Shown: positions 6,259 to 17,092 of the stretch, piece after piece
Layout: the number at the start of each line of letters is the position of its first letter
Numbering within the stretch: position 1 is the stretch's first letter
Origin: Bdellovibrio svalbardensis
Lineage (GTDB): Bacteria > Bdellovibrionota > Bdellovibrionia > Bdellovibrionales > Bdellovibrionaceae
Direction of reading: 5' to 3'
NCBI RefSeq assembly: GCF_029531655.1
Contig: NZ_JANRMI010000003.1
Location: forward strand, 496,001-560,000
DNA length: 64,000 nucleotides
Notes under the pieces: generated by a model
What the model was told of the DNA's origin: nothing
Seen by the model: the letters and a program-made list of their open reading frames with translations, nothing else
Databases searched by the model: none
Program-made: the position numbers and the translations under genes

Positions 6259-7065
6259 ATGAAAAGAGTCTTTGGCTATCATTCCTATAAAAAGTACCTA
6301 AAAGATATTTCCGAAATGCAAGGACGGGGAGCGATTTCAAAACTTGCAGAGGCTGCAGGCTGTGATCGAACGTATTTATCTCAGTGTCTTTCATCAAAGG
6401 TGCAACTTACACCAGATCATATATTAGGTCTTGCTGAATATTTAAATCTTTCTGAAGCGGAAGAAGAATACTTCCTCCTTCTTTTGTTATTTGAGCGATC
6501 TGCTTCCAGAACGGCGCAACTTAAAATCAAGAAAAAGATGGAAAAACTTAATCAGGCAGATTTGATATTGAGTAAGAAGATCGCCCAAAAGGACGACAGC
6601 AATGAACTCACGGAGATTCAAAAGGCAAAATACTATTCCAGCTGGAAATACGCGGCCCTTCATACGTTATCAAGCATCAACGAATTTCAATCTACTCAGA
6701 CGATGACCCGAAAGGCTCGTTTGTCTGAAATAGAAGGCTTAGGTATTCTCAAGGATTTGGAGAAAGCCGGGCTTCTGTCTTTCCAGAATGGGAAATGGAT
6801 TCATTCGGGCAAGAATATCCATATTCCAACAGGCTCGTCCCACAATGCTCAAAACCACATGAACTGGAGATTGAAGGCCGTCGATAGTGTGAACAATAAA
6901 AACGCGATTCACTACACAACCTTATTTTCAGTTTCCAAAAAAGATTGGGAACTCTTGCGCACGCAGCTTCTCGCTTTTATCGACCGACAAAGAGATACCA
7001 TTCATGCTTCCGGCTCAGAGGAAATGTATTGCTTTTGTTGTGATCTTTTCCAGCCGTTTGATTGA
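6259..7065 (+). CDS. TIGR02147-family transcriptional regulator
   Basis: 268 aa. The start FGYHSYKKYLKDISEMQGRG is the family hallmark and is followed by a Cro/lambda-like HTH (ISKLAEAAGCDRTYLSQCLS ... LAEYLNLSEAEEEYF, residues 25-75). The C-terminal half has the conserved KYYSSWKYAALHTL, the N-HMNWRLKAV motif and a final ... SEEMYCFCCDLFQPF segment, all shared with the proteins at 8489 and 33904. TIGR02147 proteins are abundant in Fibrobacteres and Bdellovibrionota; ligand and targets are unknown. It likely controls the divergent exported protein. Confidence 0.9.
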   Translation: MKRVFGYHSYKKYLKDISEMQGRGAISKLAEAAGCDRTYLSQCLSSKVQLTPDHILGLAEYLNLSEAEEEYFLLLLLFERSASRTAQLKIKKKMEKLNQADLILSKKIAQKDDSNELTEIQKAKYYSSWKYAALHTLSSINEFQSTQTMTRKARLSEIEGLGILKDLEKAGLLSFQNGKWIHSGKNIHIPTGSSHNAQNHMNWRLKAVDSVNNKNAIHYTTLFSVSKKDWELLRTQLLAFIDRQRDTIHASGSEEMYCFCCDLFQPFD

Positions 7066-8488: not shown

Positions 8489-9298
8489 ATGTCTATTTTT
8501 GAATTTAACGATTACAAAGCATTTTTAAGATCCGAAATCAAAAAACGCCCTGGAGCAGGAAGGGGCGAGCTATCTCGGTTGTCAGAGTTTTTGGGCATCA
8601 ATGCGACGATGGTTTCGCAAGTTATGTCAGGCCCAAAAGACTTCACTTTAGAGCAGGCAAAAAAAATTGCTGAGTATTTTGTTCTTCCAAAAGTTGAAAC
8701 GGATTTTTTCATTACTCTTATTCAAATCGAGAGAGCTGGCACTCAGGATCTTAAAAATTATTTCCGAGAAAAGCGCGACGAAATAAAAAAAGAATCCCTG
8801 AAAATTTCTAATAGAATTGTCAGCGAAAAAAGACTGACTGATTTAGAGCGGTCTATTTTTTATTCCAGTCATTTATATTCTGCAATTCATCTTTTTTGTT
8901 CGGTGGGCAATGGGCAAAGCCTTGAATCTATCCTGAAGAAATTTGAAATCAGTCGACAGCGCGCCCAAGAGATTTTGCAATTTCTTCTTTCAAATGGTCT
9001 GTGCATTCAGAAAAATGGACTTTATATGATGGGAACCCAATCGACTCATGTGGAAAAAGGTTCTCCTTTTTTGATTAAGCATCATTCCAACTGGCGTATT
9101 GCTGCTATTCAGAAAAGTGAAAACATCGCCGACAACGAAATGATGTTCACCGCTAATATTTCTTTGAGCCAAAAAGACTTTGCAAAGATACGCGAAACCC
9201 TGATGCAAACGATTCAAGAAATTTCTGAAACTGTCAAAGCCTCTCCGGCAGAAGAGATCGCGAATTTAAACATCGATCTTTTTTGGATTGATAGCTAA
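8489..9298 (+). CDS. TIGR02147-family transcriptional regulator
   Basis: 269 aa. FEFNDYKAFLRSEIKKRPGA start, HTH with LSRLSEFLGINATMVSQVMS, then IFYSSHLYSAIHLFCSV, HHSNWRIAAI and a closing ANLNIDLFWID segment. This has the same layout as the protein at 6259, indicating duplication of the whole regulator/exported-protein unit. The ATG has a short AAAGG site. It probably acts on the divergent GGGD-protein promoter and on its own. Confidence 0.9.
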   Translation: MSIFEFNDYKAFLRSEIKKRPGAGRGELSRLSEFLGINATMVSQVMSGPKDFTLEQAKKIAEYFVLPKVETDFFITLIQIERAGTQDLKNYFREKRDEIKKESLKISNRIVSEKRLTDLERSIFYSSHLYSAIHLFCSVGNGQSLESILKKFEISRQRAQEILQFLLSNGLCIQKNGLYMMGTQSTHVEKGSPFLIKHHSNWRIAAIQKSENIADNEMMFTANISLSQKDFAKIRETLMQTIQEISETVKASPAEEIANLNIDLFWIDS

Positions 9299-11199: not shown

Positions 11200-11565
11200 A
11201 TGGCATTTCCATTTGAAAATCTTGACGTTTATAAGCGCTCCATCGAATTCAACACCGCTATCGCAAGCATCTTAGAACGCAAAGGCATCACACGCACTCT
11301 CACCGATCAACTTTCTCGTGCGGCCCTTTCCATTCCCCTCAACATCGCGGAAGGTAACGGGCGGTGGCATAAAGGTGACAAGCGCCAATTCTTTTGGATC
11401 GCGCGTGGTTCTGTTTTCGAATGTGTTCCTTTGATCGAGATTCTAACGATCAAAAAAATACTAACTACTGAAGAGAACGAAACCTTCCGAGAACAACTCG
11501 AGGTCTTGGGAAAAATGCTTACAAAGCTTGCCCAGATAAATGAAGTAGATAATTCTACCGTCTGA
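11200..11565 (+). CDS. Four-helix-bundle protein (23S rRNA intervening-sequence type)
   Basis: 121 aa. The start FPFENLDVYKRSIEFNTAIA, the middle QLSRAALSIPLNIAEGNGRW and the SVFECVPLIEIL helix match the TIGR02436/S23-like family. Members are encoded inside 23S rRNA intervening sequences or as free genes and form pentameric four-helix barrels; the function is unclear. Here the gene stands alone, with no rRNA in the window. A related family (Avd) assists diversity-generating retroelements, but no reverse transcriptase is nearby. Confidence 0.88.
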   Translation: MAFPFENLDVYKRSIEFNTAIASILERKGITRTLTDQLSRAALSIPLNIAEGNGRWHKGDKRQFFWIARGSVFECVPLIEILTIKKILTTEENETFREQLEVLGKMLTKLAQINEVDNSTV

Positions 11566-12746: not shown

Positions 12747-12920
12747 TCATCTATTCGTGTCCGCCATTTTTTGCTCCAAAAAAATTCCTCTATTGCTCCA
12801 ATTTCCAATTTCAAAGCGACGCCGCCAGGCCAGCCAATCATCCCGTGCGCAGATCCTTTCACGAAGTAAGAATTTACATCCATCCTTATTGATGGCAACA
12901 TCCTCAACATATGCTTTCAT
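12747..12920 (-). CDS. Possible small basic/Trp-rich protein
   Basis: 57 codons from ATG 12920 (MKAYVEDVAINKDGCKFLLR ... RDDWLAWRRRFEIGNWSN). It overlaps the first bases of the divergent ArsC fusion gene. The composition looks protein-like but there is no clear RBS and no family, so it could be chance. Confidence 0.22.
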   Translation of the reverse strand: MKAYVEDVAINKDGCKFLLRERICARDDWLAWRRRFEIGNWSNRGIFLEQKMADTNR

Positions 12921-13816
12921 GGAAATTCTATCACAACCCCCAATGTAGCAAGAGTCGCGAAGCTTTAAGCTTGTTAGAAGCTGAAGGACAAGATTTTCAA
13001 ATTATCGACTATATTAAAGAACCACTTTCCGTTGAAGATCTCTTGAAAATGATTGCTCAGCTGAGGGGACCACTTTCATCCTTAGTGCGAGCAAAGGAAG
13101 CAGATTTCTTCCATGCTCCGTTTGATTTGACCTCGGCTGAAGAGGTCGCTTTGCGCCTTTCTGAAAAACCGCATCTAATGGAACGTCCTATTCTGCAAGG
13201 AAAGGGTTCCGCGGTTATTGGACGTCCTTTAGAAAACTTAAAAGCCTTACTTAAAGGCCAATACACGACTCAACCTGCATTTAAGTTTTTATCGTTTCCC
13301 GGAAAAATTCATCTCATCAACACTGATCAAGAGCTCCAAGCGATTGCGCTTGCACTTGAATCCCATAAAGAGCTTGGTTTTGACACTGAGACTCGTCCCG
13401 CTTTTAAAAAGGGCGAGTCCTATCCCGTGGCCTTGTTGCAATTGGCGACGGATACAGATGCCTATATTATTCGTCTTAAGCACATCAAAAATATTGAAGT
13501 TATTAAAAATATTTTTGAGAATCCTGCAGTGGCTAAAGTAGGTGCTGCGATTAGAGATGACCTCAAACAATTGCAGAAGCGATTTCATTTCCAACCGCAC
13601 GGCTTTATTGAACTGCAGACCGTAGCTAAAAATAAGAATCTTAAGAATATTGGTCTGAAAGGTATGACTGAAGAAGTTTTGCAGGCCACGATTACCAAAG
13701 GGCCCAAAACCACAAACTGGGAAGCGCAAGAATTAACTGAGAAGCAAATTCTGTATGCGGCAACGGATGCCTGGATCGGCCTGAAGCTTTATCAAAAGCT
13801 GACTTCCGATCCTTAG
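12911..13816 (+). CDS. ArsC-family / DEDDy 3'-5' exonuclease fusion protein
   Basis: 301 aa in one uninterrupted frame. Residues 1-117 are an ArsC/Spx-type thioredoxin-fold domain: FYHNPQCSKSREAL with Cys12, and the ERPILQ element at 91-96 with AVIGRPLENL. Residues 130-301 are an RNase D-like exonuclease: Exo I FDTETRP (D158, E160), Exo II GAAIRDDLKQL (D217), Exo III Y282 and D286 in YAATDAW, so all DEDDy positions are present. I know no characterised protein with this pairing. The reductase half could be redox-sensing for an RNA- or DNA-trimming enzyme. No strong RBS precedes ATG 12911. Confidence 0.88.
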   Translation: MLSWKFYHNPQCSKSREALSLLEAEGQDFQIIDYIKEPLSVEDLLKMIAQLRGPLSSLVRAKEADFFHAPFDLTSAEEVALRLSEKPHLMERPILQGKGSAVIGRPLENLKALLKGQYTTQPAFKFLSFPGKIHLINTDQELQAIALALESHKELGFDTETRPAFKKGESYPVALLQLATDTDAYIIRLKHIKNIEVIKNIFENPAVAKVGAAIRDDLKQLQKRFHFQPHGFIELQTVAKNKNLKNIGLKGMTEEVLQATITKGPKTTNWEAQELTEKQILYAATDAWIGLKLYQKLTSDP

Positions 13817-14604: not shown

Positions 14605-15441
14605 CTAGGACATAATTTCCGTACTCGGAAAGAATGAAAAATTGAGCTGGTACAGTCTTCGATTGAATAAGTGATCGACGTTTCTTTTGGCCGACTGCTC
14701 CTGGACAAATGTTTCGAAATCTCTCAGGAAATCCTCGAACTCGCTCGCGCTCATCGCAACAAAAAGATTTCTAAAACGACGTTCGTGCGCTTCATATTTT
14801 TCGATAGCTTCTTCCGCACGCCTCCAAGCGTCCTTATAAAATTCTTTGTAACCAAGACCTCTGAAGTTATTTGGAAGACGCCATGATTTTTTCACCACGA
14901 CCCATTTGCTTTCGCCGCCGACCTCTTGCTTTTCAAGCAGTCCCATTTTTTCAAGCTTGCTGCACGAATCAAAGAACTTCTGTACTGAGATCCCCAGAAT
15001 CTGCGCTGCTTTCGCAGTGTCTTTTGCAACATCTTCAAAACTTAGAAGAGTCTGAATTCGGGGCAATAGTTCATCGGCTAGAAACTCATAGTGATTTTCA
15101 ACCTCCAAGAAGTCTTCTGCGTTCATCTGAAAGCGCAAAAGTTTTTTAGCAAAAGTACGTTTTTGTTCACCGGTTTTACATTGATTGTAGTTAACAAGGG
15201 TCATGAAGTAATCAGATTCTACATCGTTGAACTGCAATGCCGCGACAAATGCCTCTGCGATACTTTCACTGATTGGGCGTTCACCCATAACAACCATACG
15301 TAAGTAAGCTCGATTCTTTAAGCCGAGCTCTTGTGCCCACTTTGTATAAGAGAAAACATCCAGACCTTTTCGATACTCATAATAGTGTTGAAGAAAAAGG
15401 ACGACATTTTGATAAGAAAGAATGGCAGGCTTTTGAATCAT
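14605..15441 (-). CDS. TIGR02147-family transcriptional regulator
   Basis: 278 aa. LSYQNVVLFLQHYYEYRKGL start, HTH with YTKWAQELGLKNRAYLRMVV and an IAEAFVAALQFNDVESDYFM helix pair, then the wHTH-like AAQILGISVQKFFDSCSKLEK and a final RLYQLNFSFFPSTE segment. It is more diverged than the three + strand members: the H-x-x-WR motif is missing. It lies upstream of and co-directional with a lipoprotein gene rather than divergent from one. Confidence 0.82.
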   Translation of the reverse strand: MIQKPAILSYQNVVLFLQHYYEYRKGLDVFSYTKWAQELGLKNRAYLRMVVMGERPISESIAEAFVAALQFNDVESDYFMTLVNYNQCKTGEQKRTFAKKLLRFQMNAEDFLEVENHYEFLADELLPRIQTLLSFEDVAKDTAKAAQILGISVQKFFDSCSKLEKMGLLEKQEVGGESKWVVVKKSWRLPNNFRGLGYKEFYKDAWRRAEEAIEKYEAHERRFRNLFVAMSASEFEDFLRDFETFVQEQSAKRNVDHLFNRRLYQLNFSFFPSTEIMS

Positions 15442-15595: not shown

Positions 15596-17092
15596 ATGAT
15601 GAAGAACTGGCTATCTATTGGAGAATTTGGCAAGGCAACGGGTCTTTCGATTAAGGCTCTGCGTATCTACGAGGAAAAGGGAATTCTGATCCCCTATACT
15701 CGCAGTGAAAGCCGCTATCGCGTTTACACCGCCGAGCAAACAGCCATTGCTCAGCAAGTGGTGCAATTTAAGCGATTAGGATTTTCTTTAGAGCAAATCA
15801 AGCTGTTACTGCAAGAAACCGACGGACGATCCCTGCAAGAAATCCTGGAGAGACGTCTTCAAGAAAGTCGCGTGGCGGTCCATATTCTCGCAAATCAGAT
15901 TGAAAGTTTGGAAACCATTTTGACCTCTTTAAAACTCGGACAGGAATTGTCCGAACACGAAAGGGGTCAAATTATGAATAACGTTTTAGAAGTCAGTGTT
16001 AATAATTTAAAACGCAAAGGAATCGTTGATCAGAATTCCATTGCTCAGGTGAGTGAAGAGGTGTCCCTTTATTCGCCTGAGAAAATACACTTCATCAACG
16101 AGTTTCGAAAGATTCTGGATTTTGCCAAGAAAGAAAATATCCTGTTGGGGCCAGGCAGAGGAAATTCTGGAGGCAGCCTAGTATTATTCGCAGAAGGCTA
16201 CTCCCCGATGAACCCCCTTCAGTATGGCTTACTTCCGGAACTATTCAGCGAAAGCAAATATATTTGGTTAGATGTCGAGTACTCCCAACATCAAAAAATC
16301 GGTCAGATGTGTGACGAACTTGCTACCAAAACCTGCTTCGAAGTCATAGCTTACCGCAGTCCCATCCTGGATATTTTAAAGAAATTGGAAAATCAAATCG
16401 GCAAGATTGAGTTCGACTCCTTTTCTGATCTTGATCCAATGATTTTGCAAGCCCCTCAGCACGGGACCCGCGGATTATTTTGGCTCGAATGGAATCCCAA
16501 TTTTCATGCCTTCCAGGATATGTCATTGCAAATGCAGGAAGAATTCAACTGGGACAACGGTGTCTTAGAACGGTTTTATGCTGAGCATGGATTCAGCAGT
16601 CCCATGGACTATATCATTTTGGATTGCCTAAGAAGCCTCATGGAGAGGGATCTCTTTTTTTCTTATCCCCGAAGAGCTGTAGATGCCTGCCCCGACTCCC
16701 TTCCCGAATTGCAATACACCAAAGGTCTTCTGATCTTCCGCGAAGATTGGATCAAGCTTTTAGCAAAACATGCAAGCGTGAGCATCAGTGAAGCAAATAG
16801 AATTCACAGGGCCCTATTGAAAGACCCTCAGGGAGTTGAGCGCGAAATCCTAGAACAAATCGCCATCCCTGAAGTAAAAAATCTTTTGCTTGAACGTGTA
16901 AAAAAAGTTTACTCCAAAGCTCACGCTATAACGGGATGGTGGCACTACAAACGCACAGCCATCTTAAAAAGCCTGTGGCCGAAAGAATATCTTGCTGCTT
17001 TGGAAGAGTGGGAAGCAGAACACAAAATGGTCTGGTTCGAATTTGGCTACAAAACCAAAAATAATGATTTTTATCTAAAGGCAAATTCCTAA
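15596..17092 (+). CDS. MerR-type HTH fused to DNA polymerase III alpha-like palm/fingers region
   Basis: 498 aa. Residues 5-75 are a MerR HTH (SIGEFGKATGLSIKALRIYE, RYRVYTAEQ, RLGFSLEQIKLLL), 78-115 a coiled coil. From about 165 the sequence follows bacterial DnaE: FAKKENILLGPGRGNSGGSL (cf. VPVGPGRGSGAGSL), NPLQYGLLPELF (cf. DPLEFDLLFERF), WLDVEYS at 224-230 (cf. PDFDVDF), KGLLIFREDWIKLLAKHAS with ISEANRIHRALLK (377-408), and SKAHAITGWWHY with LKSLWPKEYLAAL (440-469). D226 matches E. coli D403; the position of D401 is W224. PHP, clamp-binding and OB domains are absent. Polymerase activity is doubtful; a DNA-binding sensor is my inference. The second ATG (15599) has better RBS spacing. Confidence 0.88.
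   Translation: MMKNWLSIGEFGKATGLSIKALRIYEEKGILIPYTRSESRYRVYTAEQTAIAQQVVQFKRLGFSLEQIKLLLQETDGRSLQEILERRLQESRVAVHILANQIESLETILTSLKLGQELSEHERGQIMNNVLEVSVNNLKRKGIVDQNSIAQVSEEVSLYSPEKIHFINEFRKILDFAKKENILLGPGRGNSGGSLVLFAEGYSPMNPLQYGLLPELFSESKYIWLDVEYSQHQKIGQMCDELATKTCFEVIAYRSPILDILKKLENQIGKIEFDSFSDLDPMILQAPQHGTRGLFWLEWNPNFHAFQDMSLQMQEEFNWDNGVLERFYAEHGFSSPMDYIILDCLRSLMERDLFFSYPRRAVDACPDSLPELQYTKGLLIFREDWIKLLAKHASVSISEANRIHRALLKDPQGVEREILEQIAIPEVKNLLLERVKKVYSKAHAITGWWHYKRTAILKSLWPKEYLAALEEWEAEHKMVWFEFGYKTKNNDFYLKANS

Follow-up and report, generated by a model that had tools for sequence, protein, structure and literature searches.

Proteins of the ArsC type are built on a domain that is glutaredoxin-dependent, and DEDDy exonucleases hold two metals through their DEDD residues and trim 3' ends with the participation of a tyrosine. 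The triad of the R773-type ArsC is given as Arg60, Arg94 and Arg107 (PMC3169414), while the dinuclease NrnC is described in the account drawn on here as having an L-wedge at D+6 and a phosphate-cap histidine at D-5 (PMC8492067). A published fusion of ArsC with an exonuclease was not found in the open-licence literature of PMC. The window analysed here, a stretch of 64,000 nucleotides from Bdellovibrio svalbardensis, holds such a gene, which brings domains of two known families into a new combination and is known here from one genome. We consider it, with a probability of roughly 75%, to be a real lineage-specific fusion of a coupled arsC-exonuclease pair whose two active sites are most likely independent.

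Domain organization of the fused gene

The gene is a single uninterrupted frame of 301 codons with zero internal stops (Table 1), and it was matched at 100% in its own genome (3.9 Mb, 99.94% complete) at G000:C3:508911-509813. A Pfam search of the 301 residues returned PF03960 and PF01612 alone, both over cut-off, which agrees with the open frame and complete domains reported in the initial annotation. The homology scores rule out chance, as does a divergence that is biased to third codon positions in both halves. A promoter scan gave 2 hits against 2.2 expected, which is no excess over chance. Two AF2 runs each folded well only the domain for which relatives had been supplied, with pLDDT by blocks of about 84-96 for ArsC (residues 1-110) and 83-98 for the exonuclease (residues 121-300).

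Table 1. Features of the fused gene and of the neighbouring element, in window coordinates
Feature	Position	Strand	Description or basis
Fused arsC-exonuclease gene	12911..13816	+	301 aa, ATG start, TAG stop; open frame
ArsC (arsenate reductase, thioredoxin-like) domain, residues 1-115	12911..13255	+	Pfam PF03960, PDB 3rdw and R773 ArsC 1jzw, conserved residues, AF2
Cys12 codon	12944-12946	+	ArsC domain
ArsC-domain arginine codons	R60 13088, R92 13184, R105 13223	+	
Junction or short linker, residues 116-123 (G-Q-Y-T-T-Q-P-A)	13256..13279	+	Codon reading; AF2 low confidence
TAC-ACG site	13262..13267	+	DNA alignment; arsC stop TAA and exonuclease start ATG in relatives
DEDDy 3'-5' exonuclease domain, residues 124-301	13280..13813	+	Pfam PF01612, WRN exonuclease 2e6l, Foldseek 2fbv
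Exonuclease catalytic codons	D158 13382, E160 13388, D217 13559, Y282 13754, D286 13766	+	
Likely integrated element beside tRNA-Ser(GGA)	1-2505 and 11200-11565		Recombinase, Replic_Relax, IVP

The ArsC half matches PF03960 over residues 7-112 with 34.3 bits against a cut-off of 24. Its nearest structures by sequence are 3rdw (E 1.5e-16) and 3f0i, with R773 ArsC (1jzw) also matched, and Foldseek placed it on 3rdw as well (E 5.6e-10, target TM 0.81). The two halves of the protein were aligned separately; three joint alignments, one of them made with MAFFT steered by 20 copies of the window protein, were discarded with ArsC or exonuclease rows misplaced. C12, R60, R92 and R105 were observed to be invariant in 12 of 12 ArsC rows and correspond in alignment to the active site of R773 ArsC. 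The earlier assignment to the ArsC family from Cys12 and the RP-I element therefore holds, as both Cys12 and "RPI" are present. The score of 78.2 against TIGR00014 (ArsC, glutaredoxin) lies under the equivalog cut-off of 106.05 bits, so that we speak of the ArsC family and do not file this half as a proven arsenate reductase.

An Spx-like module had also been suggested, but the arginine triad is complete, the motif at Cys12 is C12-S-K-S15 (CSKS) and not CxxC, and the Spx/MgsR model TIGR01617 gives 42.7 against a cut-off of 75.05. By triad, motif and score this half reads as arsenate-reductase-like, and no evidence for an Spx role was found. A second ArsC-family protein in the same genome (119 aa, G000:C3:478822-479181) has a CSTC motif and belongs to a different subgroup.

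Judged by its sequence, the exonuclease half is a single-domain PF01612 DEDDy exonuclease closest to the WRN-exo fold. DNA_pol_A_exo1 (PF01612) covers residues 134-299 with 108.9 bits against a cut-off of 23.6, and WRN exonuclease was matched both by sequence search (2e6l, E 1.1e-19) and by Foldseek (2fbv, E 4.3e-16, target TM 0.80). The five DEDDy residues recognized in the initial annotation were confirmed as D158, E160, D217, Y282 and D286 by alignment to WRN and are invariant in all 24 aligned exonuclease rows. The description as RNase D-like has to be revised: a full RNase D is ruled out by the failed model TIGR01388 (66.5 against a cut-off of 298.95 bits) and by the absence of an HRDC-type second domain, since no HRDC was found by Pfam after the exonuclease and the protein ends at residue 301, two residues past the exonuclease match. 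An NrnC dinuclease was also rejected, as the L-wedge and cap positions described for NrnC fall on A164 and A212 here by an offset reading and not by structural superposition. The half is the only PF01612 domain found in its own genome. Copies on Prevotella and Bacteroides plasmids show about 35-38% identity to it, and most of these are annotated as 3'-5' exonuclease.

Arrangement in relatives

The searches covered genomes of the family (66), the order (140) and the phylum (368, of which 207 had a match). No match outside the own genome spans both halves in the family and order searches and, among the matches listed for the phylum, only the own genome does so; a very divergent fusion could lie among weaker matches. 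Viral contigs gave no relative, three of 50,697 phage records matched with one half only in each case, and 262 of 72,556 plasmids matched, none of them over 80% of the query. The two genes adjoin as separate genes in different frames in three of the 66 family genomes, namely G016, G018 and G019, which belong to the same genus as the own genome. In these, an arsC of 116-119 aa ends with TAA and is followed by the exonuclease in the same order and on the same strand, and the fused gene shares 67-69% identity with them in ArsC and 79-80% in the exonuclease. The exonuclease is an accessory gene in the genus, where PF01612 was found over cut-off in 8 of 24 genomes; one stand-alone exonuclease, in Pseudobdellovibrio, was found in a named-genome scan.

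The same subgroup includes stand-alone arsC genes that lie tight beside D-Tyr-tRNA deacylase in G005 (TAATG overlap) and adjacent to it in G008. Glutathione peroxidase (GPx) is the neighbour in G009 and G023, and in G010 arsC is found between two helicases with a peroxiredoxin (Tpx) two genes upstream. A DEAD-box gene comes after the exonuclease in G019.

When the fused gene is compared with G019, codon positions 1, 2 and 3 show 26, 18 and 65 differences over 116 arsC codons and 34, 18 and 98 differences over 182 exonuclease codons. The pN values are 0.184 for arsC and 0.133 for the exonuclease, with synonymous sites near saturation so that ratios are indicative only. On this codon comparison both halves are under purifying selection. 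The terminal branch of the exonuclease in the gene tree is short (0.024) and not accelerated, and the gene trees, which are weakly supported, are compatible with an ancestral or a repeated adjacency of arsC and exonuclease.

The junction

The junction was read from a DNA alignment of the window with G016, G018, G019, G013 and G023, in which the window has TACACGACTCAACCT against ATATGACTCAACCG. Stop and start form TAATG in G019 (an overlap of 1 nt) and TAA-AT-ATG in G016 and G018 (a gap of 2 nt), and the fused gene reads TAC-ACG-ACT-CAA-CCT against ATG-ACT-CAA-CCG in G016 and G018. Through a change of frame the window has lost the arsC stop. From a shared Lys/Gln codon to the exonuclease ATG there are 8 nt in G016 and G018 and 14 nt in G019, which puts the exonuclease out of frame with arsC, whereas the 9 nt to ACG in the window put it in frame. 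In addition, the exonuclease start has changed from ATG in the relatives to ACG, and no in-frame ATG, GTG or TTG was found between Met90 and Val173, so that the exonuclease is left without an ordinary start of its own.

No single base error can give both the loss of the stop and the change from ATG to ACG, which argues for a genuine lineage-specific fusion. The in-frame fusion proposed in the initial annotation is thus borne out by the open frame and by this relic of the former start. It had also been held there that separate genes in all relatives would speak against a fusion. The genes are indeed separate in the relatives examined, among the matches listed, but the fossil ACG marks the junction and therefore their separation points to a young fusion and not to an error.

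Genomic context

In five of nine relatives' stretches a tRNA-Ser(GGA) gene was observed upstream, with its relative orientation conserved. It is followed by arsC and exonuclease in G016 and G018, by the exonuclease alone in G017 and G023 (at a distance of 32 nt in G023) and by arsC alone in G011, whereas none was found in the stretches of G013, G015 and G038 nor on the 5.3-kb contig of G019. The own genome has its tRNA-Ser(GGA) at C3:495543-495626, a position that falls just outside the window on its left and precedes the fused gene by 13.3 kb. A recombinase-bearing element lies between the two, and the tRNA link is loose in this genome. A serine recombinase homologue (83% identity), a Replic_Relax protein (58%) and a 23S rRNA IVP (64%) occupy the tRNA interval of both G018 and the window, with order and orientation conserved; the recombinase homologue runs past the left end of the window.

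This set appears to belong to an element that was inserted next to the tRNA. No direct repeats were found around the tRNA. The sharing of element genes alone does not prove that the arsC-exonuclease genes are orthologous. Apart from an IVP gene in G018 and matches at family level, the 5 kb around the relatives' loci showed no DNA synteny with the flanks of the window; DEAD-box matches of the window near the arsC loci of G011, G010 and G019 were rejected as synteny, being largely helicase paralogy. With the tRNA link in five other genomes, an ancestral order of tRNA-Ser, arsC and exonuclease is the simplest account, and the fusion probably arose at this ancestral tRNA-Ser(GGA) locus.

Two further observations concern other genes of the window. 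A frame of 498 aa at 15596-17092 (+) combines a MerR DNA-binding domain (PF13411, 1.7e-12) with a piece of DNA polymerase III alpha (PF07733, PolIII alpha NTPase/palm, residues 171-218, 2.2e-07; PDB PolIII alpha matches around 172-239); the 280 or so residues that come after gave no Pfam match. It looks odder than the arsC-exonuclease fusion. Three DUF4423 proteins, likely paralogous regulators, are found within about 9 kb at 6259-7065, 8489-9298 and 14605-15441.

Alternative readings of the fused gene

A regulated enzyme, with the ArsC domain as a sensor of thiol redox state or arsenate that turns the exonuclease on or off, appears unlikely. The intact Cys12 and arginine triad would fit it, as would the thiol peroxidases (GPx, Tpx) and nucleic-acid enzymes (D-Tyr-tRNA deacylase, helicases) that adjoin arsC genes of the genus. 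However, the exonuclease occurs without a nearby arsC in four of the eight same-genus genomes that have it over cut-off, and arsC also occurs in the genus without the exonuclease; the pair is therefore not obligatory and neither gene needs the other. Furthermore, no conserved inter-domain element was found, and the linker arose anew from DNA that formerly held the stop and the start. The redox- or arsenate-linked control of trimming suggested at the outset found no support. It is very improbable that a thiol/oxyanion-sensing ArsC fused to the nuclease makes 3'-end trimming respond to oxidative or arsenate stress. If it did, the neighbourhoods of this arsC subgroup, with thiol peroxidases, tRNA deacylase, helicases and exonuclease, would reflect a general redox care of nucleic-acid enzymes.

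That the junction reflects an error of sequencing or assembly, with the two genes in fact separate as in the relatives, is also very improbable. It would agree with an assembly in 10 contigs and with every other match listed for family, order and phylum covering one half only. Without base 13264, however, the arsC TAA would come back but the exonuclease would still be headed by ACG, with no ATG, GTG or TTG until residue 173 inside the domain, so that two separate errors within a few bases would be needed, and there is no homopolymer there. Least probable is that the exonuclease is also made alone through ACG initiation or internal re-initiation and the fused frame matters little: the ACG sits exactly at the former ATG, but ACG is a very poor start codon in bacteria and termination-reinitiation is impossible once the stop is gone.

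Proposed origin and meaning

The fusion of a coupled gene pair, which is the reading we favour, would start from an ancestor with a tight arsC-then-exonuclease pair near tRNA-Ser(GGA), in which the exonuclease start overlapped the arsC stop or lay 2 nt past it. A frame-changing indel would have removed the arsC stop and the exonuclease ATG would have become ACG, probably in this order, with ribosomes then reading through. The predicted product is an ArsC-type thiol/oxyanion reductase-like domain, a link of about 8-10 residues and a metal-dependent WRN-type DEDDy exonuclease. From their residues, the front domain would offer a Cys12 thiolate and an oxyanion site formed by the arginine triad, and the DEDD residues of the back domain, with Tyr282, would coordinate two metals for the trimming of 3' ends. 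Most likely the fusion does no more than fix expression at 1:1, and the product is a bifunctional tandem whose domains keep their separate ancestral activities.

The event is probably an evolutionary accident, real but modest, and not a new control system. It would be a young fusion caught early, as relatives with 67-80% identity still have two genes and the former start remains legible as ACG. Among subunits of complexes, short gene overlaps are described as over-represented (PMC10666635). Should it be confirmed in the strain, the domain pair would give a "Rosetta stone" hint of a housekeeping ArsC and a WRN-like exonuclease working in the same place.

Comparison with known systems

A close arrangement is the arsC-exonuclease pair of G016, G018 and G019, whose halves are orthologous to those of the fused gene in the same order and on the same strand, but in which the two genes remain apart, in different frames, and are coupled through an overlap or a spacing of 2 nt. 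R773 ArsC, 3rdw and 3f0i have the fold, Cys12 and the Arg60, Arg94 and Arg107 equivalents (R60, R92 and R105) in common with the fused protein. Unlike glutaredoxin-type ArsC, the fused protein is joined to a nuclease, scores below the TIGR00014 cut-off and has no established ars context. RNase D, NrnC and diDNase (the last in PMC11706625) share membership of the DEDDy superfamily with the exonuclease half. WRN-type exonucleases (2fbv and 2e6l; the bacterial 3'-5' exonuclease of Bacteroidota) share the fold (target TM 0.80-0.85), the DEDDy residues and the size, whereas the fused protein is without a helicase and carries an N-terminal ArsC domain.
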